This document shows, piece by piece, positions 1,939-56,000 of a DNA stretch of 64,000 nt. The DNA lies in contig OY987247.1 in assembly GCA_963920765.1 (NCBI GenBank), forward strand, positions 17,146,471 through 17,210,470, written 5' to 3'. The DNA comes from Ulota crispa (Eukaryota; Streptophyta; Bryopsida; Orthotrichales; Orthotrichaceae). How positions within the stretch are numbered: position 1 is the first letter of the stretch; each line of letters starts with the position of its first letter. A program made the translations under genes and the position numbers. Under the pieces are notes generated by a model. The model made no database searches, was not told where the DNA came from, and worked only from the letters and a program-made list of their open reading frames with translations.

Positions 1939-2854
1939 CCCCTAAAGGACCATTGTCCCTTTGGAGGACAAATGGGATTTTGGGCATGTACCTATGGCTA
2001 AACTACTTTGCGTGATTTTCTGAGACTTTCATGAAAGGTGAGGAATTCAAAAATCTAAATGGGAATGTAATTTTTTCTTCATTCCAACATTTATTGAAGA
2101 AGTTATGCATGAAAATATGGAAAATACTGCTCCTTGGGCAACCAAAAACTTCTTTAAATTTCTTTTGTTTCAAATAAAAATCTGAAATAGGTTCTTTAGA
2201 CTTATATAGACGTGGGGAGCTTTGAATCATTCAATTCTAATACATGACATGAAAGTTATGAGGAGTTTTTGTTTGCGGGCAATTCTAGATTCTCTACTCT
2301 AAAATAAACTTTGAAATCCTTTGCTTTACTCAATTTTCATTATTTAGGAAAAAATACAAAACCTAAGGATGTAGATTGTTTAGCACAACATTACAACCAT
2401 TGGGATTTGCATTTTTCATTTTAATAATTAAATTCTCAACAATTTAGTGTTTTGACTCATTCTCTACTTCTTTTTACTTACTATTTTTTCCCATGTGTTG
2501 AATAGTTCCAATTGATTTGAAAATTCTCCCACACATACCTAACTTGGTCTCCTACATGGGAAAAATAAACCCCAACTTTGTGTAGAGTAATTTTTTTGCT
2601 CTAAGAGTGGTCAAAGCCTTTTGAAATTTTTGGGCAGCAGCAAAAAAACTTTTTTTTTGCAATTCAAATGTAATTGTCTCACTCATTTTTTTGTAAATTG
2701 AGCTGATTTTCCTACCACGTCTACCTCTTGTAGTCTACTATGAGATTTTATGGTTTCTTGTAAAAAACTTTTTTTCTTACCATTGTACTTGCTTCCCCAA
2801 AAGTGGCAGTTTTTTCTGTTTTTCACAGAAAAAATGGCTTGGTCCTTTAGGGGG
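1939..2854. mobile_element. piggyBac-like MITE, family A copy 1
   Basis: The left end reads CCCCTAAAGGACCA and the right end reads TGGTCCTTTAGGGG, a terminal inverted repeat. Flanks are TTGA on the left and TTAA on the right, so the expected TTAA duplication has one change. The first ~350 bases resemble the element at 39700-40419 (shared words such as gggcatgtaccta). No transposase frame is visible, so it is non-autonomous. The TTAA target with a CCC-starting end is the known signature of piggyBac elements; the assignment is inference. Confidence 0.75.
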
Positions 2855-2858
2855 TTAA

Positions 2859-4511
2859 GAGGACTTCTTTGGTTGGTTTGTTTGGTGCTTGGATGTTAGC
2901 TACATGTTGCACTTTGAGTTGAGCGGCAAACTCATGCTCAGCAATAAAAGAGTGCACAAGATCGTCATTATTGTTTGCACTTGCTAGATTGTAGTCCATG
3001 TTGATTGTTCAAACCAATCTCAATCAACCTCCAATCCTTCTAGCAAACATTGAGTTTGGAAAAATGTGGCATGCAAGAAGATTTAGTTTTTGAATATATG
3101 ATATGCAGAAGATTTCAGTTTTTGAAAAATATGACATGTAGAGAACTTCAATTTTGTGCAATGTCACAATAGTACTAGACTTTAAGCTTTGTTTTAAAAA
3201 ATGTGATGCGTGAGCTCTCCATGTAACCGCTTGAAGCTAATAATTTTTGAACTTATTTTCTAAGACAACAAACATGCAGTATAGTGCACATGCATGCTTA
3301 ATGGAAATAAGATACCAAAACTATTGTAAACACACACACATAATCTTCACCAACTAGATTATTTTATAGTAAAGCGCAAAATTGTAGGGAGTTGTCTTGA
3401 GCAGTTGACAATACTGTAAATTGCAGATTACATAGTGATTTTGTTACATTTTGATTGGCAAACTTACGCATAGTAAGTGTAAAGACAAATTAAATAAATA
3501 AATAAAATAATGAATACATTAAAATAAAATTTAAACTAAATTTGTAAATACAACAAAAAGGTTGAATCACAAGAATAAGACTAATAGTATCACAAGATTG
3601 TAAAATAAAATAAAAATAGAAGCTGAAGTTAGAGAATCCAATATGCAACTATTAAACAAATTAAAAGCATAGAGATCATTAAGATCTAGACAAGTTTTTG
3701 CAATATTAGCAAAAGCTAATTTTTTTAATAATTAGATTCTTTTTAGCATTTTTGCGCTTTATGACATTCAATTTTTTTGTAAAATAAAATCCATCTTTCA
3801 AATTATTCATAATAATTGAGATAACCTAAGGAGCTTTAATCTCATTTAACAAAAATATTAATTAATTATTAAATTTTTTACTCTACCTCTTACATACCTA
3901 AGTCTAGATGATGCATGACTGGGACTTGTCTTGTGTGCCAAAAGAGATTTCTGCGTGAGCTTGAATGGATTCTAGTTAGTGAGCACATAGTGAATGGCGT
4001 TAGAATTGCAATCTTGTAGATGGTTGGGTGGCATTAAGGTCATTGGTTAGGATGTTTGCGTTGTTGCATTAGCGAGAGGTTACTAAACAGATTCATAGAT
4101 GATAAGACTTTCGCGTATTTTATATGGAGTGGAGGATTAATGTGCAACTCACTGTGCTTTTTGCTTGTCTATGGCCATTGGTTTTGTTCAAGTAAAGAGC
4201 TTCACTCAGTCTGAGAATTAACATTCTAGTTGCAGCTTTTTTTAGATTTGAGACTGTCTCTTCCAATCCATGAAAAATGTTGCCTTCTAGTTGTGTTTAT
4301 CTTAAAGCTAGCAAAGAACTTGAAGTCAATTTATGCACTCTTTAGTACGCATTCTCATCAAAAGATCAACTTGTGTCTGTTTCACTGCTGAGCTATTTTA
4401 CTTGTTTTTGAACGTGGGCATTTGCACAAAGTTTTGTGTCATAGTTGTTTATCACAAATCAATATTAGCATACAATTTGTAAACATTATTTTAATATTGT
4501 TGTGAGTAATT

Positions 4512-4515
<4 letters not shown>
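2859..4515. other. AT-rich intergenic DNA, nothing recognised
   Basis: No gene, RNA or bounded repeat was recognised. Composition is uniformly AT-rich with scattered homopolymer runs. Confidence 0.55.

Positions 4516-4570
<55 letters not shown>
4516..4570. repeat. TA microsatellite
   Basis: About 25 TA dinucleotides lie directly against the left edge of the C-rich tandem tract that begins near 4575. Confidence 0.9.
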
Positions 4571-4574
4571 TAGT

Positions 4575-4985
4575 ATATTGCTCGTTGTACCGACGGTTTT
4601 ATACCCCCCCACCCCCTATCCCCGTGCTCCACAATCCTTGTGCCCCCATATTCCCATGCTCTCTATCCCCGTGCCTCTATCCCCGTGCCCCTTTATCCTT
4701 ATGCCCTCTTATTCCTATGCCCCCTTATCCCCGTGCCCTTCTTTTGGCCAAGAGAAAGTTGTGGTGCAATTGCCAATGACGATGAAACTGCAAGTGACTT
4801 CTTGTTAATGTCTAGTAAAGCAGATAAAAGAGAGTCATAGGCGATTTTACTTTATCCATTTATACCTTTTCAATCCTAGTCATGCCCAAACCTAACTTAT
4901 GCCCAACCCTAACTGATTGAATGCTATTACATGATAGGCCCTAATTGACTGACCGCTATTCTTTTATTAATATAAATATATATAT
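4575..4985. repeat. Left arm of inverted repeat with C-rich tandem tract
   Basis: The segment starts near CTAGTATATTGCTCG, runs through a degenerate tandem tract built on words like CCCCGTGCTCC and CCTTGTGCCC, and ends in unique sequence. The same material occurs in reverse complement at 6672-7170, including the unique part (agtcatgcc..aacttatgcc against its complement). Frames across the tract are all open because of the base bias and are not genes. The start resembles the conserved ends of some plant Helitrons, but I cannot confirm that. Confidence 0.7.
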
Positions 4986-5893
4986 ATAAAATAATAAAAA
5001 TATACTTTTTTAAGTTTTGGAGTTATTTAAGCTCTATCACCAATCTTCAAAATTTAAACTATCTTTTGCTCATGTTTGAAAAAACATAATCACAATAATT
5101 ATGCATCAATTCAAATTTTTTTTGTATTTAGGTAAGTTGTTAATTTTTCTAAATATAAATTTTATCAGCATTACAATTGTTTAATATAGATAAAATAAGT
5201 AAAATATGTGAAATTAATTTTTAACATAATTGAATTTACAAATTGATAATATAAGTACTTCAGAAGTATTTATATTGATAAAACAGTTATTCAATGAAAC
5301 AATATACACATGAGATTTTATCACAATAATTATATGTAACAAATTCATGAATTTTTTATTGATATCTAATCATAAAACAACTTGATTTCATTAAATCCTA
5401 GTTTGGCTTTTTGCACAATTTAAATGCAATTGTAAACTTTAATAATGTTAGCATTTGATTTTTTGCTCAATCATTATTAAAACAAAGTCAAGTATGGAAA
5501 ATCTGCAAAACAAATCTTTTAAAATCTAATAATTGAAGTCAAACATGAAAAAGAATTAAAAATAATATGCATATTTGCATTCACAAACTTCACTTCTATT
5601 ACCAACGCAACAATGTTAGAAGGCTTGTGATTAGACCATCTAAGCATAGGTTTGCTTCTGTGGAAAAATCAGAGTAGTTTGGTAAAATGGAAATATTTTT
5701 GGTAGAAAGTCAAAGAAGAGATAGTTTTGTGGCCATTTAATTTGAAATTTTTTAAGCTAGTATGAATTAACTACAATTTATCAAAGCAAACGGTGCATAC
5801 GTAGCTATTCTTAATCATAGGTGGTAGCATTCATGATGCAAAGGCAGCTTGTAAATGGAGCACATGAGTCCTAAAAGCAACCACTACAAAGCC
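4985..5893. repeat. Direct duplication, copy 1
   Basis: About 909 bases match 7175-8505 almost base for base, apart from a 409-bp insertion in the second copy. Similarity stops sharply after ccactacaaagcca. Copy 1 runs into the pseudogene fragment, copy 2 does not. Confidence 0.88.
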
Positions 5894-6660
5894 ACTAATG
5901 CCTTTGAGGCGAGGCTTGGCACCCATGCCACCACCACATTTGCTGATCAAATTTCAGAAACTGGAGACAAATTTAGTGAGGTGCCAAAGTCCAATCTTGT
6001 GCTCATTGTGGTGGACGCCAACAAGGAGATTAATATGAACGCATTGGATTGGGCTCTTAGCTATGTGGATTAGAAAGGGGATTATGTCAAGTTGCTGGGC
6101 GTTGTGCAACACATTCTGAATCCAAGTAAGTCAGGCGATGGTTCCAAGGGTTTTGTAGTGAGCTTTGATAAAAAAAATTAGGGTTAAGTTTTTGGTGCTT
6201 TGGCTATGGTTTGACATGGGGATGGCACCATGCAGTGGGTTATAAATTTTGAGCCAATGGGAAGAGCTAGAATGGAGCAAACTGAAAAGTCTTGGATATT
6301 GCAATTGCGGCTCACTTATCCAAGTTTGAAAGCATATCCAATGTCTATGGCAAGGTTGAGAAAATGGGGGTATGGATCAATGCACTAGTTGATTTTTTAG
6401 ATTCAAGCTTGGTACCTAGGATTTTTTATTCAATACCAATCTAGCAAATTGACCTCTGAGGTGTTTGTTAGACGCCTTCCAAAGCATTTGCTTGTCACTC
6501 AAGTAACATAATTTGATACTAGTAATCACATTAATTTTGGTACCTTCAAGGAGATTCTTCAGGATTTGGACTTGAGGATAGGCTTCTAATATGCTCCCAA
6601 TGTAAGAGTTGGTCCGAAGCAAGCACCCCTGCTAGTATTGGATAAGATCCCTCTGGTGGG
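5855..6660 (+). pseudogene. Decayed USP-domain kinase-like fragment
   Basis: The first 72 codons contain LVLIVVDANKEINMNALDWA, which resembles the first strand and helix of the universal-stress-protein-like domain at the N-terminus of some plant receptor-like cytoplasmic kinases. A stop follows, then YVKLLGVVQHILNP continues the same domain in the same frame. Further on, words like DIAIAAHLSKFESISNVYGK appear in another frame. No kinase domain is seen. I read it as a broken, partly duplicated gene copy caught between repeats; the family assignment is from motif memory only. It sits between direct duplication copy 1 and the inverted-repeat right arm. Confidence 0.5.
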
Positions 6661-6671
6661 GTAACACAACT

Positions 6672-7170
6672 TGATATCTATATCTATAAAAGAATAGCGT
6701 TCAGTCAGTTAGGGCCTATCATATAATAGTGTTCAATCAGTTAGGGTTGGGCATAAGTTAGGTTCAGGCATGACTAGGATCAAAAAGGTATAGATGGATA
6801 AAGTAAAACCACCTATGGCTCTCTTTTATCTACTTCACTAGACATTAACTACAAGTCACTGGTAGTTGCACCGTCATTGACAGTTGCACCACAACTTTCT
6901 CTTGGCCAAAAGAGGGCACATGAATAAGGGGGCACGGGGATAGGAGGACACATGGATGAAGGGTCACGGGGATAGAGGATACAAGGATAAAGGGGCAAGG
7001 GGATAAGAGGGCACGGCGATAGAGGGCACAGGGATATGGGGCATAAGGATTGGGGAGCACGGGGATATGGGGCACAAGAATCAGGGAGCACGGGGATATG
7101 GGGCACAAGGATTGGGGAGCACGGGTATAGGGGGTGGAATATAAACCTGTCGATACGATGGGCAGTATAT
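6672..7170. repeat. Right arm of inverted repeat with G-rich tandem tract
   Basis: This is the reverse complement of the 4575-4985 segment, with a longer tandem tract at 6915-7135 (words like GGGGAGCACGGGGATATGGG). Together the arms enclose duplication copy 1 and the pseudogene fragment. The tract differs in copy number between arms, as expected for slippage. Confidence 0.7.
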
Positions 7171-7174
7171 ATAA

Positions 7175-10702: not shown

Positions 10703-10706
10703 TTAA

Positions 10707-11071
10707 CCCTTAAACGTCGGCAAGGACAAAAATTGTCCTCTAGCCTCCAAAAAACACTTTGTACTGCAAAGAAAAGTACTTTCTCACCTGATTTTTTTGT
10801 AGAAGTGACCATAGATACATGGTGCACCATGGGAAGCAAAAAATAACCTTAGCTAAGGCATTCATATTTTTTGATAACCCAAATTGTGAGAAGATTCAAA
10901 GCCATGGTGTTAGGTCCCTTGCTGTCCTTCTTGCAATTTTCATGAGGGCACCAATCATACCATGCACTATTGACTTTTGTAACTTTAAGAAACAGTATTT
11001 TATTGGTGGGCACATGCCACAATATTGTAGATGCCATTGTAGAGGGCAGGCACAACCACCCAGCCAACGGG
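10707..11071. mobile_element. piggyBac-like MITE, family B copy 1
   Basis: A 365-bp element with TTAA on both sides (10703-10706 and 11072-11075). The left end is CCCTTAAACGTCGG, the right end is CCAACGGG. It is similar throughout to 40424-40779 (shared words around acattttt/tgtcct and attgactttt). The 103-codon frame inside it is probably incidental. Confidence 0.72.
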
Positions 11072-11181
11072 TTAAGCATTGTTTAGAATATACTACAATA
11101 AATTTATTTGTCTTTTTTTTCTACAAATGAATTTCATACAGAATCATGCAAAATGAGAGGTTGATAACTATGATTTAGTAT

Positions 11182-12857: not shown

Positions 12858-13132
12858 AAAATGTCATATTAGGTAGATTGGGAAAAACAAAGGTACCATT
12901 TTGTACACCTTAAACCCAAAAAGTTACCTCAAACCAGATTCAAAAGTATCAAATTCAGTTCAAGCCACTAACATTTTTTCCCTCACAAATTCCTCCTCTC
13001 AGGTGAGGGCACGTGTACCCAAAAAAATGGTGGAGCTTGATTTGGAGTGATCACCCCAAACCTTCAAAAGTCCCAAAATGGATGTTTTGACCCAATTTAA
13101 TGAATATGGTGTTATAACTAGTTTGAGTTATC
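12858..13132. mobile_element. MITE family G copy 1
   Basis: It shares about 250 bases with the block inserted at 36155-36426 (for example cctcaaaccagattcaaaag and gatcaccccaaac). The ends are short imperfect inverted repeats around attgggaaa and ccaattta. No coding capacity. Confidence 0.6.
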
Positions 13133-14080
13133 ACCCACCTCTAGTGGTGGGAGATAAAGTTATCGGACTTGATAACTTGCAAAAGTGGTTGAGCTATGGG
13201 GTAAGCCAAAGTTATTAGGTTGAAAACACCAAAATTTGACACCCACTAACCCCTAAATGCCCAAAGCACCACATTATGGTAGTGTTGACAATACTTTGAA
13301 CTTCTATAAAACCTAGCTAAGTTGGTATTTTTAGTAGATTTAAATTTTTAACTATTATATTTGAAGTCTATTGTTCAAGCATCAAAAAACCAATTCTATA
13401 AATGATTGATTATGATTTTACTATTCAAGATTTTTCTATTCAAGATTTTCTGCAAGGGTGTCCATTGCAATCTTGACTTTTTTTTAGTGTTGAGAGCTCT
13501 TGGAAATGAGGCTCAAATACACTAAACCTTGGAGAAAAATTTACACTAGAAATTCATTTAAAAAAACTATAGAGGAGATTTTGAGAAACCTTAAATTGAT
13601 TGGAGTTATGTTTGTTATGTCCTTTAAGCTAATATTTTTCATGTGACTCCTTTTTAAGATTTGACGTGTGAAAAGAAGAATGAAAATCTTTAAGTCATTT
13701 TGACATTTTTAACACCCTCTTGATCAAACATTATAATCTTTCAATCCAAAAATGATATTGTTAAGTTTTCCTTTTGTAACGATTTCTATTCTGCAATGGT
13801 TGAGCTTTTCGACGCTTCCTTCGTCAACCAAATTATCTAGATCTACAGATCATTCTACAGAACTATCACGAGGTTAATACTGTTCAGACTCTATGCTGAG
13901 AGAATAACATGAATACACACAATTGTCAAGCACGCAGTGAATCAGGTCGACGAGTGTAAGCATAATCCTGGCATATCAAGGTCATGTTACTAAGAGGTTG
14001 CGTAACCACAGCTGTTGCCCTCAGCATGTTTATACATCTGAGTTCCCCCACTTCCAGGAGGCGACGTGGCAATTTCTATA
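13133..14080. other. Intergenic DNA with a GC-richer unexplained block
   Basis: Most of it is featureless. The last ~300 bases (13770-14070) are clearly GC-richer than the surroundings and do not resemble any other repeat in the window. No frame or element end could be assigned. Confidence 0.45.
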
Positions 14081-14084
14081 CTAA

Positions 14085-14998
14085 CCCCTAAAGGACCAAC
14101 TGTCTGTTCAACGGACAAATAGGATTTTGGGCATGTACCTATGGCCAAACTATCTTGCATGATTTTTTGAAACTTTTATTGAAGATGGGGAATTCAAAAA
14201 TCTGTGTGGGCATCTAATTTTTATTCCAATTGATGCGAAGGAGCAAAAGTTATGCTCAAATAAGCACAAATTTGGGGACTTTGGGCAGCAAAAAAAATTC
14301 TTCTAAAAACTTGAAAAAAAAAAAATTTCATAGATTATATCTTTGTCTACATTTGAAGTTGTGATTCATTCCATTTAGACTAGTTATGAGAAAGTTATGG
14401 ACAATCTTGTTTTTTGGGCAATTCAAGCATCTTCTTGAAAAAATAACTTATAAATTTCATTTTTGAATGCAATTTTAACATTTTTTCAACAAAACTGTTG
14501 GAGAGGGTGAAGTTTGCTTTCTAGAACAATCTCACCATTGAGATCATTGCATTTCAATTCCATTGTAGGGTTATTAACAATTTAAGTTTCTATTGAATCT
14601 CATACCTTCTTTTGCCTAATGTTTTTTTTAAAGAATGAAAATTAACTATTTTTTATTATTTTGTTTTTTTTGAGATTACCAAATCAAATTCCCACCATGA
14701 AAAAATAGAATTCCAAACTCTATGGTGCAAAAATTTTAAGTTAAAAAAGTTCAAAGTTAAATAATGTAGTCATGCAAGGTGCAAAAAAGGCTATTTTTTA
14801 CTTTTTAAATGCCAATATCTTCCAACCTGTACGGTCAAAGTTCTTGAGTTTTGTATGACATATTCTTATAGTAGTCTAGTACAAGATCCTATGGTTAGAT
14901 ATGCAAAAAGACCAATTTTCAAACTTTTTTACTCTTTGCCATAGAGGTGGCAGTTTTGCGTGTCTTTTGACAAAATAAAGGCCATGGTCCTTTAGGGG
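14085..14998. mobile_element. piggyBac-like MITE, family A copy 2
   Basis: A 914-bp element starting CCCCTAAAGGACCAAC and ending GGTCCTTTAGGGG. Both flanks are CTAA (14081-14084 and 14999-15002), a clean four-base target duplication that is a one-base variant of TTAA. The left part resembles copies at 1939 and 39700. No transposase. Confidence 0.82.
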
Positions 14999-15376
14999 CT
15001 AAGTATGAGAACATCCAAGGTACAGCTAGGGTCTTGCTATGGTCCAACCATGATAGCCCACCAAGTCCAAGTGTGTTTGTAACACTTTTCCTATGTGATC
15101 TCTAATATAGTTTGATTTTGTATAGTTTCAATTTAAAAAAAACTAATACAACTTATCAAAATTTTGGCTTTTTGTTCAATTTAGAACAAATTCCTAAAAG
15201 CTCAAAAAGTGCTTTGGGCATTTGGGGGTTAATATATATGCATTGCTCTTTGCTAATGCACGGTAGTAACTGGCAATATGAAACACTGCTTGTAAAACTC
15301 GGACATCTTGGTTTTTGCTTGATTTAGTCTTATGTAGGAGCTAATTTGTCTGCCAAAACTATAGCAAAAACTATAG

Positions 15377-16629: not shown

Positions 16630-19600
16630 ATGGCGGGTGCTGCTTGTCTCTTCCCGAACGCTCACGCATTCCTGCGCTGTCGCTCTGACTCACACATTCA
16701 TCCTTCGCAATGTAATAACATAGCCATCTCCTGCCAACGACGACGTCGGTTTCGATGTGCGGCGGCGAAGGAGAATCAGTCGACCTCACAGCTCCTTCTT
16801 GCCATGGCTCAAGAGCGTGCGGCTCTGCGTGCCGCCGAGAGCTCTCGAGAAGGTACCTGTAGTATCGATTCTTTCGCATTTTCATTTCGATGCCAAATTA
16901 GCCTCTCCTCCAAACTTCCTTAGGGTTACTAAAACGGGGAAATTGATGTCAACTACGTGTGAGTCCAATTGCAGAGCCGCTTTTCCATGATCCCTACGCT
17001 GCTTGCCTTGTGGAGGAGGCAATCAATACTGCGAATGGAGATGACGTAGGTTATTATGAATTAGCTGCAAGCTTCATTGATGACAAGCTGATGGAGGCCG
17101 TGAAGGACCACGGCGATGCTTTAGTTCGTCAGGTACGCATGCTTTCCTCTCCAACTTTGGTAAAGAAAAATGCAGTTTGCTACTGCGAGTTTAGAGTGAT
17201 TTCATGCACGTTATTCTCTATGTTGCTCACTCGTCTTAATATCTTTCAATCGCCGAAATAATAACTGCTGACACTGGTGAAAATTTTAAGTTATAATTCT
17301 CATTTGAGACACGAGAAACTTGAGCTCAGCTCAAACTGCTATATAGTTTCTGGAGATGTTTTGAATTAGTTATGAACTTTTTACAATAGCTATTGTAATG
17401 TCGTTTTCTTTACTGAGTATTGAGCTTTGCTTATAGTGTTCCTTCCTGGTGCTTTAAACAGTTGCATGAATGGCAATGATCAAACAGATCTCCACAAAGC
17501 TGTGGTAGTTTTCATGGATTTGGGGTTAGGGTTGTCAAACCAGCTGTTTACAATTGTGATTTAGATTATACCCCTGAAGTTTGCCATATTTTCATAGATA
17601 CCCCTGCTTTTTCAGAAATATCACAAATACCCTTGGGTCAAAAAATTTAGCCGTTTGTTTTGTTGTGCCACTTCCCTTCTTCCTTTGTGCGCACGCATAA
17701 CAAGAAACAAGAAATGTGCGCACAAAGGGAGAAGGAAGTGACATGCTTAACTAAACAAACGCCTAATTTTTTTTATCCAAGGGTATTTGTGATATTTCTG
17801 AAAAAGCAGGGGTATCTATGAAAATATGGCAAACTTCAGGGGTATCCATGAAATTTTCCTTAGATTGTAATAAGGAGAAACTGGAGGCCATGCTTTAAAA
17901 GCATCAAGCTGAATTTGAGGAGCTACCTTGTTTGCTTGTGCAGGTAGTGTTGTTGACCGATGGGATGGATGCAAGGCCATACCGATTACCCTGGCCACTT
18001 GCAACAAACATCTTCGACATCTCCCCGAGCACTACACACAACATTGCGGCTGAGAGATTGGAAGGTAGACATTTGCCGAGACTGCACCCTTGTTATTCAT
18101 AAGGTAAACTAAACGAGGTTTTACAATTTCAAATCATTGCTGATTAAGATGACAAACACGTGCTGTGTCCCATTTGCAATCCCTTCGACGAGAAAACCCG
18201 ACCTCACGACAGTGTTTGCAATGGCAGCGGTAGGTGCAAGAGTCCGGAGAGGGTGCATGCTCCGGCACATATCAGTGGACCTTTCGGAGGATGGAGGTTG
18301 GAAAGACGACTCCTGGGAGAGAAACCTTGTGAGAGTGGGATATCAAGGCACTCGTCCCAGTGTCTGGGCAATGCAGGTCCGCATTCCCCTGCTTTAGCTC
18401 AATCTTGTGACTACTTTCATTTACATGCTTAAATGTCTCTTCCTATGCCTGCTTCTTGGGGAGGTCTCTTCTTGCAAAAATCTTAAATGACCATAGGGCA
18501 TAGCATATATGCTGTTGTATAATTGGCATTTGCTACCAATAAGAAGTTTTAATTTGGGATCTCAAGTAGCTCGCTAGAACTGCTTTGACGTATTCTCCAA
18601 CTTCTTTGTTGATCTCAAATGTAGTAAAGGTGTGAATCTATTCCAAATACAAGAAAAACACCTCGTATTCTACTGGTCGCAGCGGCACGCTGAGACGTTT
18701 AGGGGTTAAGGTACTCCGTGAGAGAAGAGTATATGGACCATATGTGCTCACTAATTTTTCATTTAAATCCACCCTAAAGTATTTATGTTCCTATTGTGGT
18801 GAGTAAAAAGCATTCTGTAATATTCAAGTTGACTTGAAAAACATCTTTATCTATTCTATCACACATTCACGCAATTTACAATTTGTAGATTTAAAAATCT
18901 ACCTTGTAGTGTCTCCCACGTAGTTTCTAATGATGCGATTGCGTCCTTTTTGTGTGCTTACAGGGGCTGCAAACTTTGTCTGCAGAGGGCTTGGAAGTCA
19001 TTCTCAAGTGTGTTAGCAGTTTGGCTATGAAAGACTCGATCTTTCTTGGGCAGTTGCCGTATGCTGCACTCGGTGACATCCCACAGGTATAAACAAGCTC
19101 TTTAGTATCTGAAGAACCGAGAAGCCCAGATTTGACTTTGTATTAAATTTTTGCTGTTTTATTATGTAAAGGAGCTTTCAGTATTTCAATTTTATCACAA
19201 TATGGTCTTGGAAGTTGGTCGTAATTGATCAATAATTCAAATCGTTCGTTTGGAAAACCCAGTCGTTGGAGTTGAGAAAAGTGCTTGCATTTCTTCTAGG
19301 GTTTTGAAACTTGGTTATGAATTGCTTTTAGGAAAGGATTAGCGCAGAATTATCGAGAGTGTTCGGGAGTAATGGTTTCCATGCGAGTTTGGTGTTGCAC
19401 GAGGAGATTTTGTGTTCGAAAAACAGAACTCTGACGAAGGTGAACGGACAAGACCATGTAGGGGAACTTCTGTTCGTTGCAAAGCAGCTGAGACTCTCTG
19501 ATAACCAGGTAAAGCTTTGGCGATTCTTCTTGGATATAAGGTAGAAGAACCTAAAACCAACACTTACTTCAGATGCGGCGCTTTAGAAGGTCTTTTGAGA

Positions 19601-21174: not shown

Positions 21175-21185
21175 GTTACAATTAA

Positions 21186-22070
21186 CCCCTAAACTACCAA
21201 GGCCATTTTCTACCAAAAACCACTCAAAACTACCCCTATTTTTGTGTTCATCAAAAATTCCAACAAATGCTTTTCTTGTAGATCTAACCATAGGATCTTG
21301 TGATGCACTTGTAGAAGAAGTGGTAAAAATTTTGTGACATTTGATCACATAGATTGAAAATTATGAGCTTTTGAAGGGAATTTTTTTTTTTCCCATGGTG
21401 CCCGAAAATTTCAGATGGCTTTGACCGCCATTTGATGATTTTTTTTGCACTACAGACCGTGAATTTCTAATTTTATTTTATAGGTAATCAAGTTAGACCT
21501 TTGTACACCAATTTTCAAGGCAATCAAAGACATGGAACACATCCTAAAAAATATTGCAATGCCACTATATGACAAGTTTTGCAAATACATTACAACATTT
21601 TTGAGTGAAGTTTCCCACCACATGTTTTTAGATATGGAAAATCCAAACAATATGTTTGAAGATAAACATGTACTTCAAAAGTTTTAAAAAAAAAAATTTA
21701 AAAAACTCAAAATCTCTAAAATTTAGAAGCTCCCAAAGCCCAATCTGACCTTCTAATTGGAAATGAAAGGGGGCAATTATGAAGTAATGGGGACCACCAG
21801 AGCAACATGTGGCAACCCCTCCTTGCTCCCTCTCCTCCAAAGTCAATATCTTTTCCCTTGCCCAAGCTGCCCCTCGAATTGCTTTTGGCCAAAAAAAGCT
21901 CATAACTTGTGAACCGTGTGACATTATTACATTATTGTTTTTGCATTCACAAACCTTATGTATTCCTACACACCCATAAAAATTTTCAAAAAATCATGTC
22001 AAAAATTGAGGTCACACGAGCCTACCCAAAATCCCAAAAGTCCCTCAAGGGAACTTTGGTCCTTTAGGGG
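21186..22070. mobile_element. piggyBac-like MITE, family A copy 3
   Basis: 885 bp starting CCCCTAAACTACCAAGG and ending TTGGTCCTTTAGGGG, with TTAA on both sides (21182-21185, 22071-22074). In the intact family H copy near 11423 the same place reads acaattaaacaaca with TTAA once, so the duplication is directly shown. No transposase frame. Confidence 0.87.
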
Positions 22071-22737
22071 TTAAACAACATCTAGTGGAAAAACTTATCT
22101 TTTTTTGATAAACAAGTGTAAAGATAATAATTTGCTCCCTAACTAAGCTTTACAAACAGGCGTTTTTCAGTTGCAAAATCTTTTGTGGTTCTAAACTAAA
22201 TCAAGATCTCTAAATCCAAATTTAAAAATTCAAATTTTCCAAATTCAACTTGGTGATAATGTTTATCTTGGTGTGCATATATCAAACCCTGGGTGTGAAT
22301 ATATCCATTCCTTTACTTAATATCTCATTGTTTTTACTAGTAACTCTTCCTCCCCATCAATCCCCCCTCATCCTAGCCTTTAAATTTGTGGCAAATTTTT
22401 GCCCAAATCTTAACTCGGTTTTGAATTCATCATTCCTTTAATTTTGGTGTTACCACCCCTTTGAAAGAAGAAAAGACAAATTCGATTTTTTATGGAAACT
22501 TTTATTGCACCATTACCTTCTTTTTGATGTATTCTTGCTTTACGTAATTCAAAAGTTCTTTATTTTCATTTTTTGATTCAAGCACCTCCAATTATTTTGG
22601 ATATGGTCTTCAATTGATAATGGTGAAACAATTCTAATATTCCAAATCAAAAAATCATTATCAAATTCTCATAGGTCATCTTCAAAGCACACTTTAGGAT
22701 GTGGTGTTTGCAGTTTTGGGTGTGGTGTTCGCAGATT

Positions 22738-22822: not shown

Positions 22823-22885
22823 TTTCTATAATAGTCTTATTTCTATTAGTTGGGTAGTTGGGTGTGAGTGCTACAAGAAGATTCA

Positions 22886-23119
22886 CCCTTAAAGGACCAT
22901 AGGGCATAATATATATGCTGTCGTATAATATTATAATTGGTATTTGCTACCAAAAAGAAATTTTAATTTGAGATCTCAAGTAGCTCACTAAAACGGCTTT
23001 GATCTATTCTCCAACTTCTTTGTTGATCTCAACTATAGTAAAGATGTGGATCTAGTCCAAATACAAGAAAAACACCTCATATTCTATTGGTCGCACCGGC
23101 ACGCTATGTCCTTTAGGGG
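22886..23119. mobile_element. piggyBac-like MITE, family C copy 2
   Basis: 234 bp starting CCCTTAAAGGACCATAGG and ending GTCCTTTAGGGG. Right flank TTAA, left flank TTCA. High similarity to 18481-18705. Confidence 0.78.
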
Positions 23120-23499
23120 TTAAATGGCGGTTATGGTCGGCCTCGGGGATGGGGTATACACGGTACTCTTCATCCACCAATGTAAACCATTACATTCATC
23201 AATAATTTTTCTTTTACCTTTAGTCCACCATTACAAATCACAAAGATCAATGGATGAATGTGTTACCATTTACTTTTCATCTTCCAAGTCAAAAAACAAT
23301 ACTTTGGGATGAAAAAGAGGTGACATTTTACTTTTTCCTACCTAAATTTATATTCTATATAAACCATCAACCATTCCTTTTACTATTCACTTCTCATGTT
23401 TCATGCTTCCTTAAAATTACTACATCTCTTGTGTTTACATCTCTTGTGTTTTACTTAGAGTTGTTTAAGAGTTTTTGTGTATTCACACAATTATTCACT

Positions 23500-33013: not shown

Positions 33014-33017
33014 TTAA

Positions 33018-33421
33018 CCCATTAACGTCTGGTTAACCATTTCCTGGTCGATTTTGACTCTTTTCAATTTGTAGAGAGAGCATGTTAAGGAATTTGATGA
33101 TGTGGCAAAGGGGAAGAGTTTGGGGAATTGGAAAGTGAAGAGTTTAGGACAATAATTAAGTCAATCTGAGGTGGCATGTGGCTAGAGGGTTGAAAAAACT
33201 AAAAGAGTACTAGCTAAAAATACACCAATAAATGCAAAAAGATGGCCATAACTACTAAAGAGTGAGCATAATTCATGATGCATAACACTAAACCTTGCAA
33301 GATACTTCCATTTGTACAATCAAATATGTGATAGACATTTGTATTCAATAGTTTTAAATTTTGCCCCAGATGGCCATACAAAGGATTGCCCACCCTAAAA
33401 TCAACCATAGACGTTAATGGG
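33018..33421. mobile_element. piggyBac-like MITE, family D
   Basis: 404 bp with ends CCCATTAACGTCTGGTT and, in reverse complement, CCCATTAACGTCTATGGTT; TTAA on both sides (33014-33017, 33422-33425). Non-coding. It lies downstream of both flanking genes, which converge here. Confidence 0.8.
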
Positions 33422-33949
33422 TTAATGCATAGATTCTAATGCCCCTTCAAAATGGAATTCCAAAATTGTTAGTCTAAAATTATCTTTGATAATAGATACA
33501 CAAAATAGAAAACATTGGTATGCTCAAGATTTCTTCAATATGGTCAAAGACTAAATAATCTAATTGTTACCATGAAACTACCATAAGCAAAGTGCCAATT
33601 TCAATGAATAGCATGGACATTTTTGTAAATTAAACCAAGAGCGTGCAATACTTAGAATATGAGGATCCAAATGACAATCTCATCAATTAGGATTGTAAAA
33701 CAATTTACTTACATGCTTGACTTCCATAGACACTCCGATTGCATCTCATAATAATGTTATTTATCAATAAGACTTTGACTCTTCATAGCATTTCAATACT
33801 TTCTTTGTACAATGCCATTTGAAGTACGTTAGAAACGAACCTAACTTACTAACAAGAATGTCCAAGAATTTGACCATGAAAAACAGTATATACAAAAAAC
33901 ACTCAACAACAAAATTTGCAAGATCTAGTGTCCCTACCTTATTCCCAAC

Positions 33950-39665: not shown

Positions 39666-39699
39666 TCAAAGCCAAAGAGCGATGAAGTTGAAACTTTAA

Positions 39700-40419
39700 C
39701 CCCTAAAGGCCTAAGTGGTCTCTCAGGGGCCAAGTGGGGTTTCGGGCATGTACTTACAACTAAACTACTTTGTGTGATTTTTTGAAACTTTTATGGAAGA
39801 TGGAGGATTCAAAGATTTGCGAGGGCATCTAATTTTTTCTTGATTTTGACATTTATTGAAGAAGTTAAAAATGAATATCTAGAAAATAGGGGAGGGCGGG
39901 CAGCCCAAAAACTTCTTTAAAAATTGCACTTTTTTTTAAATAAATATATAAAATAGATTTTTTAGAATTATATATAGGTGGGGAACTTTGAATCATTCAA
40001 TTTTGGTTGATGAGATGAAAATTATGAGAAGTTTTTGTTTGCGGGTAGGTATGGATTCTCTCAAAACCACACCTACTCGCAAACGAAAACTTCCCATAAC
40101 TCTCATTTCATCAATCAAAATTGAATGATTCAAAGCTCCTTGCTTATATATAAGTTTAAAGAGCGTATTTCATATTTTTATTTTTTTAAATGCAAATTTT
40201 AAAGAAGTTTTTAGGCTGCCCGATCTCGCCCATTTTCCAAAACCTCATTTTTAACTTCTTCAATAAATGTCAAAATGAAGAAAAAATTAGATGCCCACAT
40301 AGATTTTTGAATTCCCCATCGTCCATAAACATTTTAGAAAATCATACAAAGTAGTTTAGCCATAGGTACATGCCCAAAATCCCATTTGTTCCCCAAAAGG
40401 GGGCTTGGTCCTTTAGGGG
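39700..40419. mobile_element. piggyBac-like foldback MITE, family A copy 4
   Basis: 720 bp, palindromic over most of its length around a centre near 40058. Left end CCCCTAAAGGCC, right end TTGGTCCTTTAGGGG, TTAA on both sides (39696-39699, 40420-40423). The 1939 copy contains one arm of the same sequence. Confidence 0.87.
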
Positions 40420-40423
40420 TTAA

Positions 40424-40779
40424 CCCCTAAACGCAAAGGAGGACATTTTTTGTCCTCCAACTCTGAAAAAACATTATGTATGACAAAAGAATGTTGTTTT
40501 TCATTTGATTTTTTTCAAAAGTGATCATAAACACATGGTTTTATGATTTATCATGGAAGGCAAAATTTTACCTATCTAGATGCACTCATATTTTTAGATT
40601 CCTCAAATTGTAAGAAAATTCAGAGACATAGTTTTAGGTCCTAGCAAATTTCATGAGGTCATCATGTACTGTTGACTTTTGGAGCTTCTTGGGCACTTTC
40701 TATACAAATGAAAACACTACATAATATTGCAAATTTTTGTAGTCTGGCTAGTCACAATGACCAACCGGACATTGAAGGA
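40424..40779. mobile_element. piggyBac-like MITE, family B copy 2
   Basis: Starts CCCCTAAACGCAAAGGAGG directly after the TTAA that ends the previous element, so both share one TTAA. Matches 10707-11071 over its length. The right end, near accaaccgg, is not clean and abuts the next element. Confidence 0.62.
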
Positions 40780-40783
40780 TCAA

Positions 40784-41728
40784 CCCCTAAAGGACCAAGT
40801 GCCGATTCAACGGCACTTGAAAATTTGGGTAGGGTCATATAAAGTTGATTTTTGTTAAATGTTCTCAAAAGTGTTATAGAAGGTGCAAATATGTATCCCT
40901 TGAGTGAAAATGTGATTTTTTGCCCAATTGAATGCCCAATTCAAAAGTTTTGTTGCCCAAAAGATTTTGGGCAGCTCAAGCAGTTTGAGTATCTTTGGAG
41001 AATTTATGCTAAAACTCTCATCAAACTTTTGAAATTTGGCAAGTATGTAACTAATAAAATATGGTATACAACTGTCAAAAAAAACTGGGCTCTCAAATCA
41101 TATTTTAAGAGGAGTCAAACTTAGGTAACTATGTTTGAGCGGTTTCAAGAAGAATTATTTTCTTCTAGCTTCAAATTGAATTATCTTTCAATGTTTATAT
41201 TCAAAGCTTTTAAAAAAATTCCACATATTTAGAACCTTTGTCTCTAACCTTTCTTTGTTTGGCTTTCAAATAAAACACTTCCTCATTGCACAAGAAATTA
41301 TGAAAAAATGACTAGTGTATTGCCAATTCACTCAACCTCCTTGCATTGCAGGGTGATTTTAAATAAGCTAGACTCTATGTTTGCTTTTGAAAATTTTCAT
41401 GAGTTGATCTAATAACATATACTTATGCATGGTCAAAAAGCTCATTTTTGTATAGAGCAAATAGTTTATTCTATGAGGGCTCAAAGTCTGCTGACTTTGT
41501 TTTGCAAGAATGAAAAAAAGTTGCCTTTTTCACTTCAAATGTTATACTATTACGATCCATGTGGTCAAATGGGCTAAAAGTTTTTGTGTACATCAGTTTA
41601 TTTGCTTAACACAATTTTGTATAATGGAGATTCAAAGAAAAAAGTTTTATTTTCAATTTTGGGCACTGCATTAAAAGTTAGCAATTTCTAAGATTTTTTC
41701 TCAAAAAACACCCTTGGTCCTTTAGGGG
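40784..41728. mobile_element. piggyBac-like MITE, family A copy 5
   Basis: 945 bp from CCCCTAAAGGACCAAGTG to CTTGGTCCTTTAGGGG. Flanks TCAA (left) and TTAA (right). The interior differs from copies 1, 2 and 4, so only the ends are shared. Confidence 0.78.
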
Positions 41729-41732
41729 TTAA

Positions 41733-43433: not shown

Positions 43434-43562
43434 AGTTACATAACCCCCGAGCCTAACCAACAACGTACAAATGATGAGAGGGAAAGCCTCGGTCAGCTGA
43501 CACGCCACGGTCACCGACAGCCGCGTGCGAAGGCCCGGCAGTTTTCCCGCCCTTGCCCGCTG

Positions 43563-49476: not shown

Positions 49477-49855
49477 TCTCTCAAAAACATTCCATCTTGC
49501 AAAAAACCAGCCAGATTGCTTGATCGATCTCTACCATTCTGGTGCAACTATAAAAACCCCCCTTGCAATAGCCTTTTATTTGTTTAGTGTTGTAGAGTTC
49601 TTTTCTTTTTCTTTAGTTTGTTGGAGCATTCACAATAGCGTCTCTCCAAACTCTACTTCGTGTAGTCGCCCTAGTTCTCTCAAAAAATTCCATGGTGCAA
49701 AAACAAGCCAAATTGCTTGATCAACATCCAACAATCTGGTGCAACTATAAAAATCCCCCTTGCAATAGATTTTTTGTTTATTTAGTGTAGAGTTCTTTTC
49801 TTTTTCTTTAGTTTGTTGGAGCATTCAAAATGGCGCCTCTCCAAACTATCAGGGT
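49463..49855 (+). repeat. Tandem duplication of the XBAT35 3' UTR
   Basis: A ~190-base unit starting at the stop codon context (tactccgtgtag) recurs at 49656 (tacttcgtgtag), including ctctcaaaaa.attcca, ctggtgcaactataaaaa and gagttcttttctttttcttt. The second copy carries a full stop-codon context beyond the real stop. Confidence 0.85.
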
Positions 49856-49859
49856 GTAG

Positions 49860-50585
49860 AAGTTTGTTGAGGCTCTGGTTGCAAACTACGGCATGTTGTC
49901 TGTTTGAGTTCCCTGAGGGGAATTTGAAATGCATTTCTTTCTGCGAGTCTCACATTTCCCTTCAAATCTCAACGTTTGTTACCTGCTTAAGCTTTTTTGT
50001 TTGAGCAGGGGATGCGTCAAGATTGGGTGGGAAAAAGTGAGAGTCTTATAGAGAGTTGCATATGAGACGCTTGTGCCTGTTGCTAGTTTTTGGTAGCTCT
50101 TGAAGGAGTGTGTTTATACACGTGATGTCGCCATTTCGTTTGGAGATAGCTGTTCTCTTTGTACATACGGTATCAAGGAATCATATTTGGAGTGAGATTT
50201 GTTTGCCGGAAGGTTTATCTGAGTTTGAGGTATTAGAGTGGGAGGTGAGTTTGTTGTGATGGTAGGTAAGGTGGAAGAGATGAATTTTATTCAAAATATG
50301 GATTTTGAAGTCAGATTTCATGTTTTTGTGGTACTAGTTCTGAATTTCTGAAGTTTGGAAATTTTGATCTATGCAAGTGCTGTAGAAGCGTCCTCGCCTT
50401 AAAACTTTTCAGTGTAAGTAATTCAGTATCATAATATTTTGATAAAGGCTGTCAGCCCTATCTTTTAGTTTGATTCATTACCATTCGTATGTTGCTTCTT
50501 GAGGTTTTGACAATATTTACCTTTGGTTCGCAAATTGGAATCGTAGTGTTTTCAGTGGTAAATGCCATTTTTTTAAGATTGAGAA
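49860..50585. other. Intergenic, nothing recognised
   Basis: Downstream of XBAT35; no gene-like frame or bounded repeat. Confidence 0.5.
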
Positions 50586-50609
50586 ACATAGATCACACTC
50601 TGTCTGTCC

Positions 50610-51510
50610 CACAGCTCAATTGTACTGTACAGTACCAGTTTGTATTGATAGGTAGAACTTGTTTTTGGCATTCCAAAGAAGTTTGTATAACAAAAAATGT
50701 AAAGGTCATTTCAATCTCATATTTTTGGTATCTGATTCTCATGCAATCCCAATCAACCATACCAAATCTTGGTTACTAAAAATCAAAATCTTATTTTTTG
50801 GTACGTTGTTTTGTGTCAAAATCATGGGTTTACAAGAAAGTTGGTCAAAACACATTGGTGATGAATTTTTAAGATTTGATTGCATGGATAGGTAGGAGAC
50901 ATCCATACGCACATGTATCCTTCTAACAAACATCTACAAAAAGTTCAAAATTTTGTCAATAGAGGTTCAAATGCTGGAGTGATCATGACCAAATTTAGTA
51001 AAATAGATAATTCTTTATGGTAATTAAATTGTGCCATTTGACTCATACATTATGATTATGTCTATACCTTTGAACATGATGATATATTTATTTCGTCAAA
51101 AGCTAGTTAAAAATGGAGATATTTATTTTACTAAATTTGGTCATGATCACTCCAACATTTGAACCTCTATTGACAAAATTTTGAACTTTTTGTAAATGTT
51201 TGTTAGAAGGATACATGTGCGTATGGATGTCTCCTACCTATCCATGCAATCAAATCTTAAAAATTCATCACCAATGTGTTTTGACCAACTTTCTTGTAAA
51301 ACCATGATTTTGACACAAAACAACGTACCAAAAATAAGATTTTGATTTTTAGTAACCAAGATTTGGTATGGTTGATTGGAATTGCATGAGAATCAGATAC
51401 CAAAAATATGAGATTGAAATGACCTTTACATTTTTTGTTATACAAACTTCTTTGGAATGCCAAAACAAGTTCTACCTATCAATACTAACTGGTATTGTAC
51501 AATGGGGGGG
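50610..51510. repeat. Very long hairpin, ~390-bp arms
   Basis: Left arm ~50610-51006 and right arm ~51118-51510 are near-identical reverse complements (for example ggtagaacttgtttttggca against its partner near 51470), separated by a ~110-base loop. Arms differ at only a few percent of positions by eye. Frames inside are mirror images of one another, not genes. It is probably a foldback MITE. Confidence 0.9.
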
Positions 51511-51721
51511 ACACAAAGATTGGGAAAGCTCTACCTAATACCTCACAAATCCATTCTTGTGAGACTCTGAAGGCTCCAATCAAACTTGAAGATGTTAGGT
51601 TGTTTAAAGATATACATCTTTTAGTTTGATTGTAGCCTTTGGGGTCTCAAATGAATGGATTTGTGGAGAGTTGTGTACTTAGATGTTGTGCTGAAATTTC
51701 CTAGTCTTTTTGTCCCCCCCA
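51504..51721. repeat. Second hairpin, GGGGGGGACA ends
   Basis: Outer ends GGGGGGGACACAAAGA and (reverse complement) GGGGGGGACAAAAAGA. Inner arms pair (cacaaatccattc, aggctccaatcaaact) around a loop near 51603. It touches the right arm of the larger hairpin. Confidence 0.78.
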
Positions 51722-53028
51722 CTATACACAACCTATCAATGGCAGATAGGGTTTGTGAAGGGTAAAAATATGCTTGAATATTTTACAAGAAAGATTTGTC
51801 AAGATTGAATTCTAAAGTACGGTTTCCCTTCTTGCCAAGATCCAAGTCCTTGTAACAAAGTCCCACTTTCTCGGAACTAAAACTTGTAATTTTGTTTTGT
51901 TGTAATGTAGATATTTTGTATTAATTTGGATTTTGGACATAGTGTGAAAAATCTTATATTTAGAATTTGTGGGTTACTTGCCTCTAAAGTAGAATGATTG
52001 CACGCAATCAAAAGATGCACTACACAACTTATTTCAGTTATACTAATAACACCAATTTGCACTATTCCAAGATATTAGTGAATTAGACAAGAAGCAAGGT
52101 TAGTCTACTCTAGTGTGACTCAAGTTTCTAAGGAGATACACAATCACATATCTCAATTAGAGAACAAGAGTGTGTGAAGGTTGCCATATTATGGAGGTTG
52201 TGCTACCAATTTGCTTACATACAATGGAAGCTGTGCCGCCAAGTCGCTACTTACAGCCCTTAGTATGTTCTAATTGCAACGCTTTCATGTAAAGCGTGTC
52301 ATAGGTAACTCAAGAATGGACATGAAGTGGTCTTTGAATGGACCTCTTCAAGTCATAGAAAAAATGGTGTATTTTATTGCAAGAGCCAATCACACTCCTT
52401 GGTTTCTCCACATCTCTTTACAAGTTACACATAACATTGTTAAACCCAGCCTCACTCCTCCCCCATTGTGGAGGGATTTTCCCCCTGGGATACTTGGGGG
52501 GAGAGTTTCGTTATAAATCCTCCCATTTGATTGGTGCAGTCTACAGGGATATAATGGCATTCGCTGGGGGGTTCCTCATATTGGGGGAGCAAAAGAAGAC
52601 CCCCCAGTGAAGGTTAACAATGTTATGCAAGGGGATGGTTTATGAAAGGTCTAGAGTCACAAATATGTGTCTACTATAGAAAACTTTGAAAAATTATCAA
52701 CAATTCAATAATGCTTCAAAAAATATGAAAAAAAGTGTCTCACAATTGCCATCCAATTCTTTTTGCCTGAAAATTAGACAAAAAAACCTTCATGCCTTGG
52801 AAGCCCATGAAAAGGCAGATCAGCCCTTAAAGTGGTGGTTTTCAAGCATACTACCTTCCTTAAAGAACAAAGACAAGATGCATTCTACACCTTTGCTCTG
52901 ACCTTTGCTCTAATAAGGCAAAACTCTCCCAAATTAGAGTGAAGAAGTCTGGTGCTATTCATAATCTTGCACTATTTAAAACAATTTGTGTAATCATGTT
53001 GCACATTGAATCCTAATCATAGAACTAA
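51722..53028. other. Intergenic, nothing recognised
   Basis: No gene on either strand. The last bases are the 3' flank of the PsbP-domain gene. Confidence 0.5.
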
Positions 53029-56000
53029 TCATAGAACTACTGTTTGCTTGAAATTCTGAACAACGGACTTCATACAACTTGCGTTGCTCAGCCACAGCTC
53101 CTCTGGAACTTGTATTGTCAAAGAAAGCACCTGAAATACCCCCCAAAACAAAACAAAAAAAACTAGAGTCAGCTCCAATAAGGGCTACTTTGTACACAGA
53201 CTAATTTAAACGCCAGCTATTTCAACAAACTTCAAAGAAAACCTAACCATCCACATACCTCAGAAGAGGTGAAGAAATTTCAGTCACTGAGATTTTCATG
53301 CTTCTTCTAGGTATTCTAAAATTTTAACCCTTAAACAACCAAGCAACCATAGGACGTAGTATGTACGCTGCTGTATAACTGGCATTTGTTACCAACAAAA
53401 AGTTTCAATTTGGGATCTTGACTACTTCACTAGAACATCATTGATCTATATTCTGACTTCTTTGTTGATCTCAAATGTAGTAAAGGTGTGGATACATTCT
53501 AAGTACATGAAAAATACATCATACTGCTCATTACGGGCTGCTCAGACGTTTAAGGGTTAATCAAACGCTTTGGTTAAAAAACAAGCCTTCCAAAAGCTTA
53601 CAAAAGCTGGGGAATTGTTATTGTCTTGCATTTGGTACCCAGAAAATAACAAGAAAAAAGAAAAAAAAAAAAAAGAAGTCAATATCTTTCAGTCTCCAAA
53701 CTTTTAACGAGACTCTTAGGTTTTACGTCAATGGCTCAATAATACACGGTTTTGGTCAAAAACATTTAGGAGAACTTATCAAGTATATACGTACCACTCA
53801 GCGTATGACTAAATTTAGAAAAAAATTATATCTGGTTTTTTCGTGTTGCTGCTTCAAAAAAACACTTAAAAACCAGTGTTATATTTAAATGTTGGTAATT
53901 TTAGAGCCATTTGAGAGCTAATAATAAAACTAACATTTTTTCTTTGGGAAGATCTGTAGACGATTCTAACCTTTTTGTCTGTTCGAATTAGTTTCGTCAA
54001 GAAGTGCCGTTGTTTACCACCGGCTTCAACGAACAATTCGATGGAGTAGCTTCTGCAAACAAGCTCCACAAAAAACTTTAGAATTCAAACTCTAAAAACA
54101 GCATTGATTCTAACTTTGTAAAACATTTTCCAAGTCCCCCTTTTTTGGAACTGAATGGAAAAGTCATGGTTGTTGTTAGACATAAAGTACCTGTTAACGC
54201 TCCCATCTTGCTTCAAATCAACTCCAAGCAGCTCTGCCTGCATTGCAAACGCACAAGAAAACTTTTAGTGGAAATTGAAGACTCTAAACACAGAATTACC
54301 CCCGAAAATCCAATGAAACTGCATTATCCAGGATGAGTTTTTTGTTCAGAAAATACAGTGAGAAATAATTCACAGAAATACAAGGAAGGTCCACAGTTCT
54401 TCAATTCTCTGCAGTATCATAGTTTCGAAGCTATCAACCCCTGAGCGCCCAGAGTTATTTTAGGATTAGGAGAAAATGGGGGTTTAATGGCCACTAGAGC
54501 TTGGAAAATTACATCAAGAAAAAGTGACCGCTGCAATTTGAAAAAGGATTATCTTCTTTGCTGTTGGGGACCAGCCATGACTGTTTTCACAATACAAATC
54601 AAGAGAAAGTGAGATAAAGTTGTGGGTCCCAATGACAGGATCTAGTCACTGGGGCGCTTAAGGGTTAAGGGATTTGACTGATAAAAACCTTGTCTATTGT
54701 TGGAGATTTCTGATATTGAGTAATAATTGCTTTGCCAACCTGTGCAAAAAAAGAAAAAAAATTGGTGAACTCATCCTCTCCCAAACGTCTCCTGCAAGCA
54801 TATAATGCATGACACTTATAACCAACAACTTCCAAATTTGAGTGGCCAATCTAATGCTTTGTCAAAAAAAAAGCTATCAAAAATCCAAGACCACCGAGAT
54901 GAAGCCTAGGTTTTGTTCTTCTTATTATTGGTGAAATTGCTTGAGCTAATGGGTGTATGTATTGTGCTTTAGTGCTTCTTGTTGCAACAATTTAATCGGT
55001 TGGATTTCGAATGCTTTTGAGCTAAAACAAAAGACCTGCACATTCCAATATTTAATGTTTTGAGAATTTCATTGCCACTTTGAATAGTGCAAAAATGACC
55101 AATATCAAGTGAGATATGAGTGTTTCTGCTTCAAACTTTGAGTGAAGTCAACAAAATGCGACTATTCGAAAGTTTTACATATCAATTACGATAATACGTT
55201 TGTTTTGAGTGTTACAAACGACATATTTCCACACGTGTGATCCAGTGCTTTACTCTTGATATCATTTCCTTATTCAAAAACCAAGAAAAAATAAAATAAA
55301 GTTTGGACATCCTTTTAATTTTGACCTACTTTGAATTAATGGAAAAATTTCAAAAAACTACTCAATCGAGGACGTTGAATTTGAGCTTCATTTTGGTGCA
55401 AACATACCATGTCCAACAGGAAGAAATCAAATCGGTGAAATGACCTTCAGAAATAAGAAAAAACATCTTGAAGACTGGGAACCATACAAAGTATCCAAGC
55501 TAAAGCTACCAAAGAATAAGAGACTTTCAGTATTGCCATTTTTACAAGCATTTAAGCTGCCATTTTACAAATGTTTTATGTTGCTATTTTTTACAAGTGC
55601 TTAGGTTTAAATTGCAAGATGCACATGTTCCAAACTTACAAGAACACTGTGGTTTTCCTCACGGGGTTTACCTCAGCCGCTGAGCCAGACAACGTTCCAG
55701 GTTGAGTAGGACCTGTGAAAATACTCATATTCAATCCTGCAACTTCAGGATCGTGAACCAAAACCTGTAACAGAGTTACACAGAGTTGCTGATCAAACTC
55801 AAACAGCCACCCCTGATCACAATTTCAGTAGCATTTCTACACCACACCCTCCTCTAGAAACACTATAAACCAAATATTAGACATGCATCAGGCCCTAAAC
55901 CCTAAAAACCCTAAAAAAATTACATCCTAAACTTGAAACCTAAAACCCAAAACCTTTGACAAAGAAAACATTCAGAAGCTCAGAATTCATTAAATAACAG

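Follow-up and report, generated by a model that had tools for sequence, protein, structure and literature searches.

Candidate piggyBac-type miniature elements, and transposases between matching ends, in the genome of the moss Ulota crispa

Here we have analysed a stretch of 64,000 nucleotides from the moss Ulota crispa (contig OY987247.1; G000:C6:17146471-17210470), hereafter the window, together with the 274.8 Mb assembly of 157 contigs to which it belongs. We propose that the elements scattered through the window are, with high confidence, non-autonomous transposons of the piggyBac superfamily, i.e., miniature inverted-repeat transposable elements (MITEs). That the window carries elements with CCC ends and TTAA flanks, as an earlier note on this DNA had described, is confirmed. 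The hallmarks of the superfamily were each found in this genome: a transposase, its three-aspartate (DDD) core, a cysteine cluster, the TTAA target and CCC-type ends. The window elements likewise have the attributes of MITEs, being short, devoid of transposase, of high copy for group A (the group whose ends were counted genome-wide) and equipped with ends in common with a transposase-bearing element.

Transposases and the ends around them

A search of the genome with the PF13843 (DDE_Tnp_1_7) profile returned at least 120 matches (best E 1.3e-73), ten of them without an internal stop, while the same profile found none in 14 control genomes. From these, 17 transposase loci were retrieved at 10 kb (L019-L035), comprising the 13 best matches and four chosen because they had few stops or none. 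At the first, second and third catalytic column, 15, 11 and 14 of the 17 loci have aspartate, the 11 other cells being nine N, one E and one gap; guided by PDB alignments, we take these aligned aspartates to be the known catalytic positions of piggyBac. The second one reads N in L020, L025, L026, L030 and L031 (5/17), for which our guess would be decay by deamination, a D to N replacement that fits a single G to A change. In 12 of the 17 loci, the domain is followed after 59-72 residues by the start of a CxxC-type cysteine cluster, as counted in any of three frames and without a shuffled control. Compared with PDB entries, the L032 domain matches Trichoplusia ni piggyBac (6x67, E 4.1e-20) and piggyBat (9c0f, E 5.8e-17), and two of the loci, L019 and L028, are 90% identical to one another across 5.0 kb. 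Directly upstream of the domain in L023 (2794-4410), 539 open codons lie in the same frame with one stop between; the upstream frame of L032 holds two KPKRKYTRK motifs and that of L023 a similar KPKRKYVHK. A Pfam search with the upstream open frames of L022, L023, L024, L032 and L035 returned no family, and in L023 and L032 the upstream frame is possibly an enlarged transposase N-terminus.

Ends of the expected kind surround many of these domains. Under a rule applied alike to inward and outward pairs (end motif with at most one mismatch, at least 14/18 bases matched between the ends, 4.5-6.5 kb apart), an inward TTAA-CCC pair brackets the transposase in nine of the 17 loci (L019, L020, L022, L023, L024, L026, L027, L028 and L035), whereas the outward-pair control yields 1/17. 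The ends are short, inverted and start with CCC, apart from a few reading CTC or CCT, e.g., in L020 and L026. Furthermore, in the 14 transposase loci for which one or both ends were identified, end distance correlates with protein distance (Mantel r 0.52, p 0.0001, 9,999 permutations), which we read as support and not as proof, since the ends were hand-picked and some loci contribute a single end.

Group A is tied to a transposase through exact ends. Three further loci, L036, L037 and L038, were fetched solely for having exact group A ends 3.4-7.2 kb apart, and the earlier note had proposed that a DDE_Tnp_1_7 domain between matching CCCCTAAAGGACC ends would settle the family. Indeed, one of the three, L038, has exact A ends at 674 and 7852 (7.2 kb) with a frame-broken transposase, detected by tblastn, at about 5085-6217 between them, which supports tying group A to this superfamily. 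Among the 17 loci, the L038 transposase is best matched by that of L021 (407 bits summed over pieces), followed by L022 (304). L021 in turn has an A-like right end 1.94 kb past its domain, and across its last 59 bp this end agrees with the right end of L038 at 83% identity; under the bracketing rule, L021 yielded no left end to match. L037 was set aside, being composed of several ends.

The abundance of group A ends was judged from genome-wide counts. Exact CCCCTAAAGGACC occurs 4,753 + 4,844 = 9,597 times, and its reversed pattern 2 + 1 = 3 times; exact TTAACCCCTAAAGGACC occurs 4,072 + 4,082 = 8,154 times, and its reversed pattern 0 + 0 times. TTAA thus precedes 8,154 of the 9,597 exact group A ends (85.0%), and the remaining 15% would reflect mutation. 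A loose scan of the window itself (up to five mismatches) found 18 + 18 = 36 end matches, where 20 first-order Markov simulations gave 8 to 20; as this is merely two to four times the simulated counts, we regard it as weak evidence, do not take it as proof and let the genome-wide counts decide. When ends were paired more loosely across the window and the fetched loci, 40 pairs resulted, fortuitous ones among them; 22 have TTAA on both sides and two have the same non-TTAA 4-mer on both sides, namely A2 (Table 1) and a pair with TTTA (48657-50832) that is apparently fortuitous. CCCTAAA is the plant telomere unit. Three close CCCTAAA units stand at 55893-55915 of the window, and the single one within the group A end is probably a coincidence.

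Elements of the window and their target sites

The window holds 13 elements in all (Table 1): twelve from the earlier list and F, added here. That list, although announced as about eleven elements, gave most starts correctly. Two entries needed revision, in that C3, placed at 53338, has its TTAA at 53324 and its CCC at 53328, and C1, placed near 18481, has an eroded left end where TTAA is absent. An exact TTAA stands to the right of 11 of the 13 elements and to the left of six, all other flanks being one base off except on the eroded left side of C1. Leaving F aside, the window MITEs are 235-953 bp long, and a tblastn search of the window with the 17 transposase domains gave no match at E 1e-5.

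Table 1. Elements and other annotated features of the window (element spans include the flanking 4-mers)
Feature	Position	Strand	Remarks
Partial group C relative	946..1122	.	Single TTAA at B-insertion point
A1, group A MITE	1935..2858	.	924 bp with flanks; TTGA / TTAA, extra G before right TTAA
B1, group B MITE	10703..11075	.	TTAA both sides; right end taken from scan
F, newly added	13246..15232	.	Ends CCCCTAAATGCCCAAAGCAC; flanks CTAA / TTAA; A2 nested inside
A2, group A MITE inside F	14081..15002	.	CTAA both sides, direct repeat
C1, group C MITE	about 18484..18709	.	Left end eroded, without TTAA
A3, group A MITE	21182..22074	.	TTAA both sides
C2, group C MITE	22882..23123	.	Flanks TTCA / TTAA; TTAA at B-insertion point
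D, group D MITE	33014..33425	.	TTAA both sides; ends CCCATTAACGTC
Host gene piece, PEX11	33950-34468	-	Pfam match
A4, group A MITE	39696..40423	.	Arms complementary along most of length; right TTAA shared with B2
B2, group B MITE	40420..40783	.	TTAA common with A4, TCAA common with A5
A5, group A MITE	40780..41732	.	Flanks TCAA / TTAA
Host gene piece, RING finger protein	48952-49476	+	Pfam match
C3, group C MITE	53324..53560	.	TTAA both sides; TCAA at B-insertion point
E, group E MITE	54434..54668	.	Flanks TCAA / TTAA; end CCCCTGAGCGCCCAGAG
Host gene piece, triose-phosphate-transporter family protein	59579-60649	+	Pfam match

The terminal sequences of these elements were compared with the window and eleven of the fetched loci. 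The first 179 bp of A1 are 91% identical to the left end of L038 and its last 352 bp 74% identical to the right end (362 columns), and the middle of A1 does not align to L038 at all. The first 360 bp of A3 match the right-hand end of transposase locus L021 at 67%, and the first 232 bp of D match the left end of the transposase-bearing L035 at 69%. The terminal 24 bp of F are 95.8% identical to an end of the transposase-bearing L022, and 25 bp of E are 96% identical to an end lying 2.0 kb from the L033 transposase domain. These likenesses support linking D, E and F to the ends of L035, L033 and L022, respectively, as judged from sequence. Given the terminal homology of A1, A3 and D to transposase-bearing loci, the earlier suggestion of unrelated interiors cannot stand for all elements: 179 to 360 bp of terminal sequence are shared. 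Among the short elements themselves, B1 is 82% identical to the B element of L028 over 337 bp, C2 is 86% identical to C1 (236 bp), A5 matches a MITE in L035 at 77.5% over 970 columns, and E has an 87% identical copy in L036. With identities of mostly 67-91% among the copies compared, and with stops in the majority of PF13843 matches, most of the transposition activity looks old.

Elements inserted into other repeats bear on the target. L028 contains a C element broken by a 369-bp B element with flanks TGAA and TTAA. At the corresponding point, four of six uninterrupted C copies read TTAA, namely C1 (where the internal TTAA at 18549-18552 represents the empty site), C2, the partial relative at 946-1122 and the copy in L036; the other two read TCAA (C3) and T-AG (L027, in a short alignment). 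The earlier note had asked for TTAA duplication at orthologous empty sites, and what these copies offer is the paralogous counterpart of that comparison, with TTAA in 4/6. At paralogous sites, then, the duplication expected of piggyBac was found, in B within C and as a single 4-mer in the case of L002 discussed below. The direct CTAA repeat around A2 is the pattern expected of a duplicated off-consensus target; no copy spanning its empty site was present among the 40 best matches to the joined flanks, other copies of F having been seen without that part. For L038, a stretch of L028 was tried as an empty site against the joined flanks and rejected, the two being 72% alike only, with TTAA absent. 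In the chain A4-B2-A5 (39696-41732), neighbours share their flanking 4-mers, as if the flank of one had served as target for the next; an end-to-end pair sharing one 4-mer also occurs in L036, where E stands beside an A end.

A candidate further element lies at 62796-63064, with TTAA on both sides, CCCTTT ends and 14/18 bases matched. Elsewhere in the window, a large foldback element (50626-51501) has arms that are 95-99% complementary in their longest pairs, and sequence related to it adjoins the right end of L038 and is also present in L004, L032 and L036. At 4515-7137, a G+C-rich minisatellite (GGGGCACGGGGATA-like units) forms inverted blocks beside an A+T microsatellite. In the wider assembly, 46 of 48 PsaA/PsaB matches fall outside contig C157 (on contigs C1-C11) and are mostly short, as nuclear plastid-DNA copies would be. 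Among PDB entries, the plastid PsaA protein of this assembly scores best against 8htu (1733 bits) and 6l35 (1712.8), both from Physcomitrium patens, ahead of 9lut (1697.7) and 7wfd (1650.6), in keeping with a moss host.

Weighing the piggyBac assignment

Groups B and C, which would belong to piggyBac by their ends and TTAA, are where an alternative fares best. They could be MITEs of a different superfamily whose CCC-type ends arose by chance, and the nearest transposase-locus end does differ from B1, B2 and C3 at 3-4 of 14 bases; C2, however, differs from the ends of L021, L023 and L035 at 2/14 bases, and the B insertion replaced a TTAA in C, so that we consider this alternative unlikely. More broadly, the ends might all derive from another superfamily that duplicates TTAA, with the piggyBac transposases as unrelated co-residents. 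Kolobok and Sola3 are TTAA superfamilies, and TTAA duplication is not unique to piggyBac. Such a reading could also draw on B and C, which are tied to no transposase locus, and on the profile search, which used PF13843 and left out Kolobok and Sola. We nonetheless find it very improbable: PF13843 transposases sit between ends of the A, F and L035 types and near a type E end, end similarity tracks transposase similarity, and for groups A, D, E and F the loci L038, L035, L033 and L022 already speak against it. Finally, because TTAA holds TA at its centre, TTAA flanks alone suit both piggyBac and Tc1/mariner, but a true 2 bp TA duplication (Stowaway-like, the outer T and A then reflecting target preference) is hardly credible when PF13843 is the kind of transposase enclosed (in L038 and the nine bracketed loci, from a search that left the mariner profile out) and when TCAA and TGAA flanks, though possibly mutated TTAA, have no TA.

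Several observations do weigh against assigning the window elements to piggyBac. Eight of the 17 transposase loci have no qualifying end pair and one (L025) has an outward pair, and the 17 are a selected rather than random sample. Between their exact A ends, L036 (5.1 kb) and L037 (3.4 kb) have no transposase at E 1e-5. No transposase examined was shown to be intact, and in L038 one piece has two stops and the matches lie apart in separate pieces. By its terminal 14 bases, D does not have L035 among its four nearest ends, and for groups B and C no link to a transposase locus emerged among those compared. Furthermore, in L002 a group A element with TTAA on both sides interrupts another repeat; the 40 genome matches listed for the joined flanks comprise two of the filled copy and 38 spanning the point, and all seven of the 38 that were aligned read CCAA (7/7, 16-18% diverged) instead of TTAA. 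These copies show that one 4-mer was added, and they demonstrate no TTAA target.

If the piggyBac assignment holds, as we consider very probable, the transposase, with its DDD core and C-terminal cysteine cluster, would have resided in larger elements, about 5.0-7.2 kb end to end, that fall into several divergent clades, each clade having its own version of the CCC-type inverted end. The short derivatives would have retained the ends plus a variable length of terminal sequence. By binding the CCC-type ends, the transposase would have transferred whatever DNA bore them, in trans, into TTAA, duplicating it. Cut-and-paste chemistry, seamless excision and precise repair of TTAA would follow what is known of other piggyBac elements, and B and C presumably used the same machinery as the other groups. 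The earlier note held that an autonomous piggyBac relative exists or existed in this genome: transposases between ends bear out the past tense, and the present tense fares less well, the transposase copies read being mostly broken.

Relation to known systems and wider meaning

The category of element is a known one; the novelty lies in the host, in how abundant group A is, in how many clades reside together and in how large the elements are. With T. ni piggyBac (6x67) and piggyBat (9c0f) the moss elements share the PF13843 core, the aligned aspartates, the C-terminal cysteine cluster, TTAA and CCC-type ends. They differ in their length of about 5.0-7.2 kb (L038 may hold a further insertion), in the plant host and in the 539-codon open frame upstream of the L023 domain.

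The comparisons that follow refer to the available portions of the papers cited. Beetle piggyBac elements are likewise flanked by TTAA, with ends that include CCCT, CCCTTT and CCCATT (as well as CACGTT); unlike the elements described here, their intact forms measure 2,074-3,465 bp, encode one transposase of about 500-725 aa and live in an animal host (PMC12732532). A MITE group of two coral genomes, also animal, comes from a paper that names piggyBac 57 times and TTAA 13 times (PMC2872659). Plant MITEs are similarly short, high-copy and non-coding with inverted ends, and the moss elements differ from them in the TTAA target and the piggyBac transposase (cf. PMC12550479). A 2025 MITE survey of 207 plant genomes, four of them bryophytes, sorts its elements into five superfamilies plus Micron, and neither piggyBac nor TTAA appears in the available main text (PMC12550479); by term count, both are also absent from the portion available of a 2025 review of plant MITEs (PMC12595863). 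Plant piggyBac is mentioned in passing in several papers (PMC10140906; PMC10813416; PMC8086355, which also covers TTAA and the footprint-free excision of piggyBac), PiggyBac is listed among plant superfamilies (PMC10794571), and it is one of seven angiosperm MITE superfamilies in a review (PMC10004981). A fern genome table contains 1,230 PiggyBac annotations (PMC6890710). Descriptions of piggyBac come mainly from animals, and the earlier note remarked that it is rarely described in land plants; the 2025 beetle paper terms plant occurrences occasional, gives red algae as an example and calls plant studies limited (PMC12732532). Within the literature searched, mostly at listing level and with subscription journals largely outside its coverage, no description of moss piggyBac elements was found; the "Piggybac" of one moss genome paper proved to be the word "piggybacking" (PMC10619864).

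As a broader and more tentative idea, which we rate somewhat short of probable, land plants, or at any rate mosses, may host several ancient, vertically kept piggyBac clades, each with ends of its own and with transposases that have become enlarged; their MITEs would form a substantial component of the genome that has been missed or misfiled since plant MITE surveys have had no TTAA class. A single plant genome here combines at least 120 transposase matches in several clades with a single type of MITE end in about 9,600 exact copies. Annotators gain a testable rule (TTAA, CCC-type ends and PF13843), and the history of piggyBac in plants becomes testable through comparison of moss genomes. Moreover, the transposase clades paired with their end types provide a natural data set on how transposases and their ends change together.

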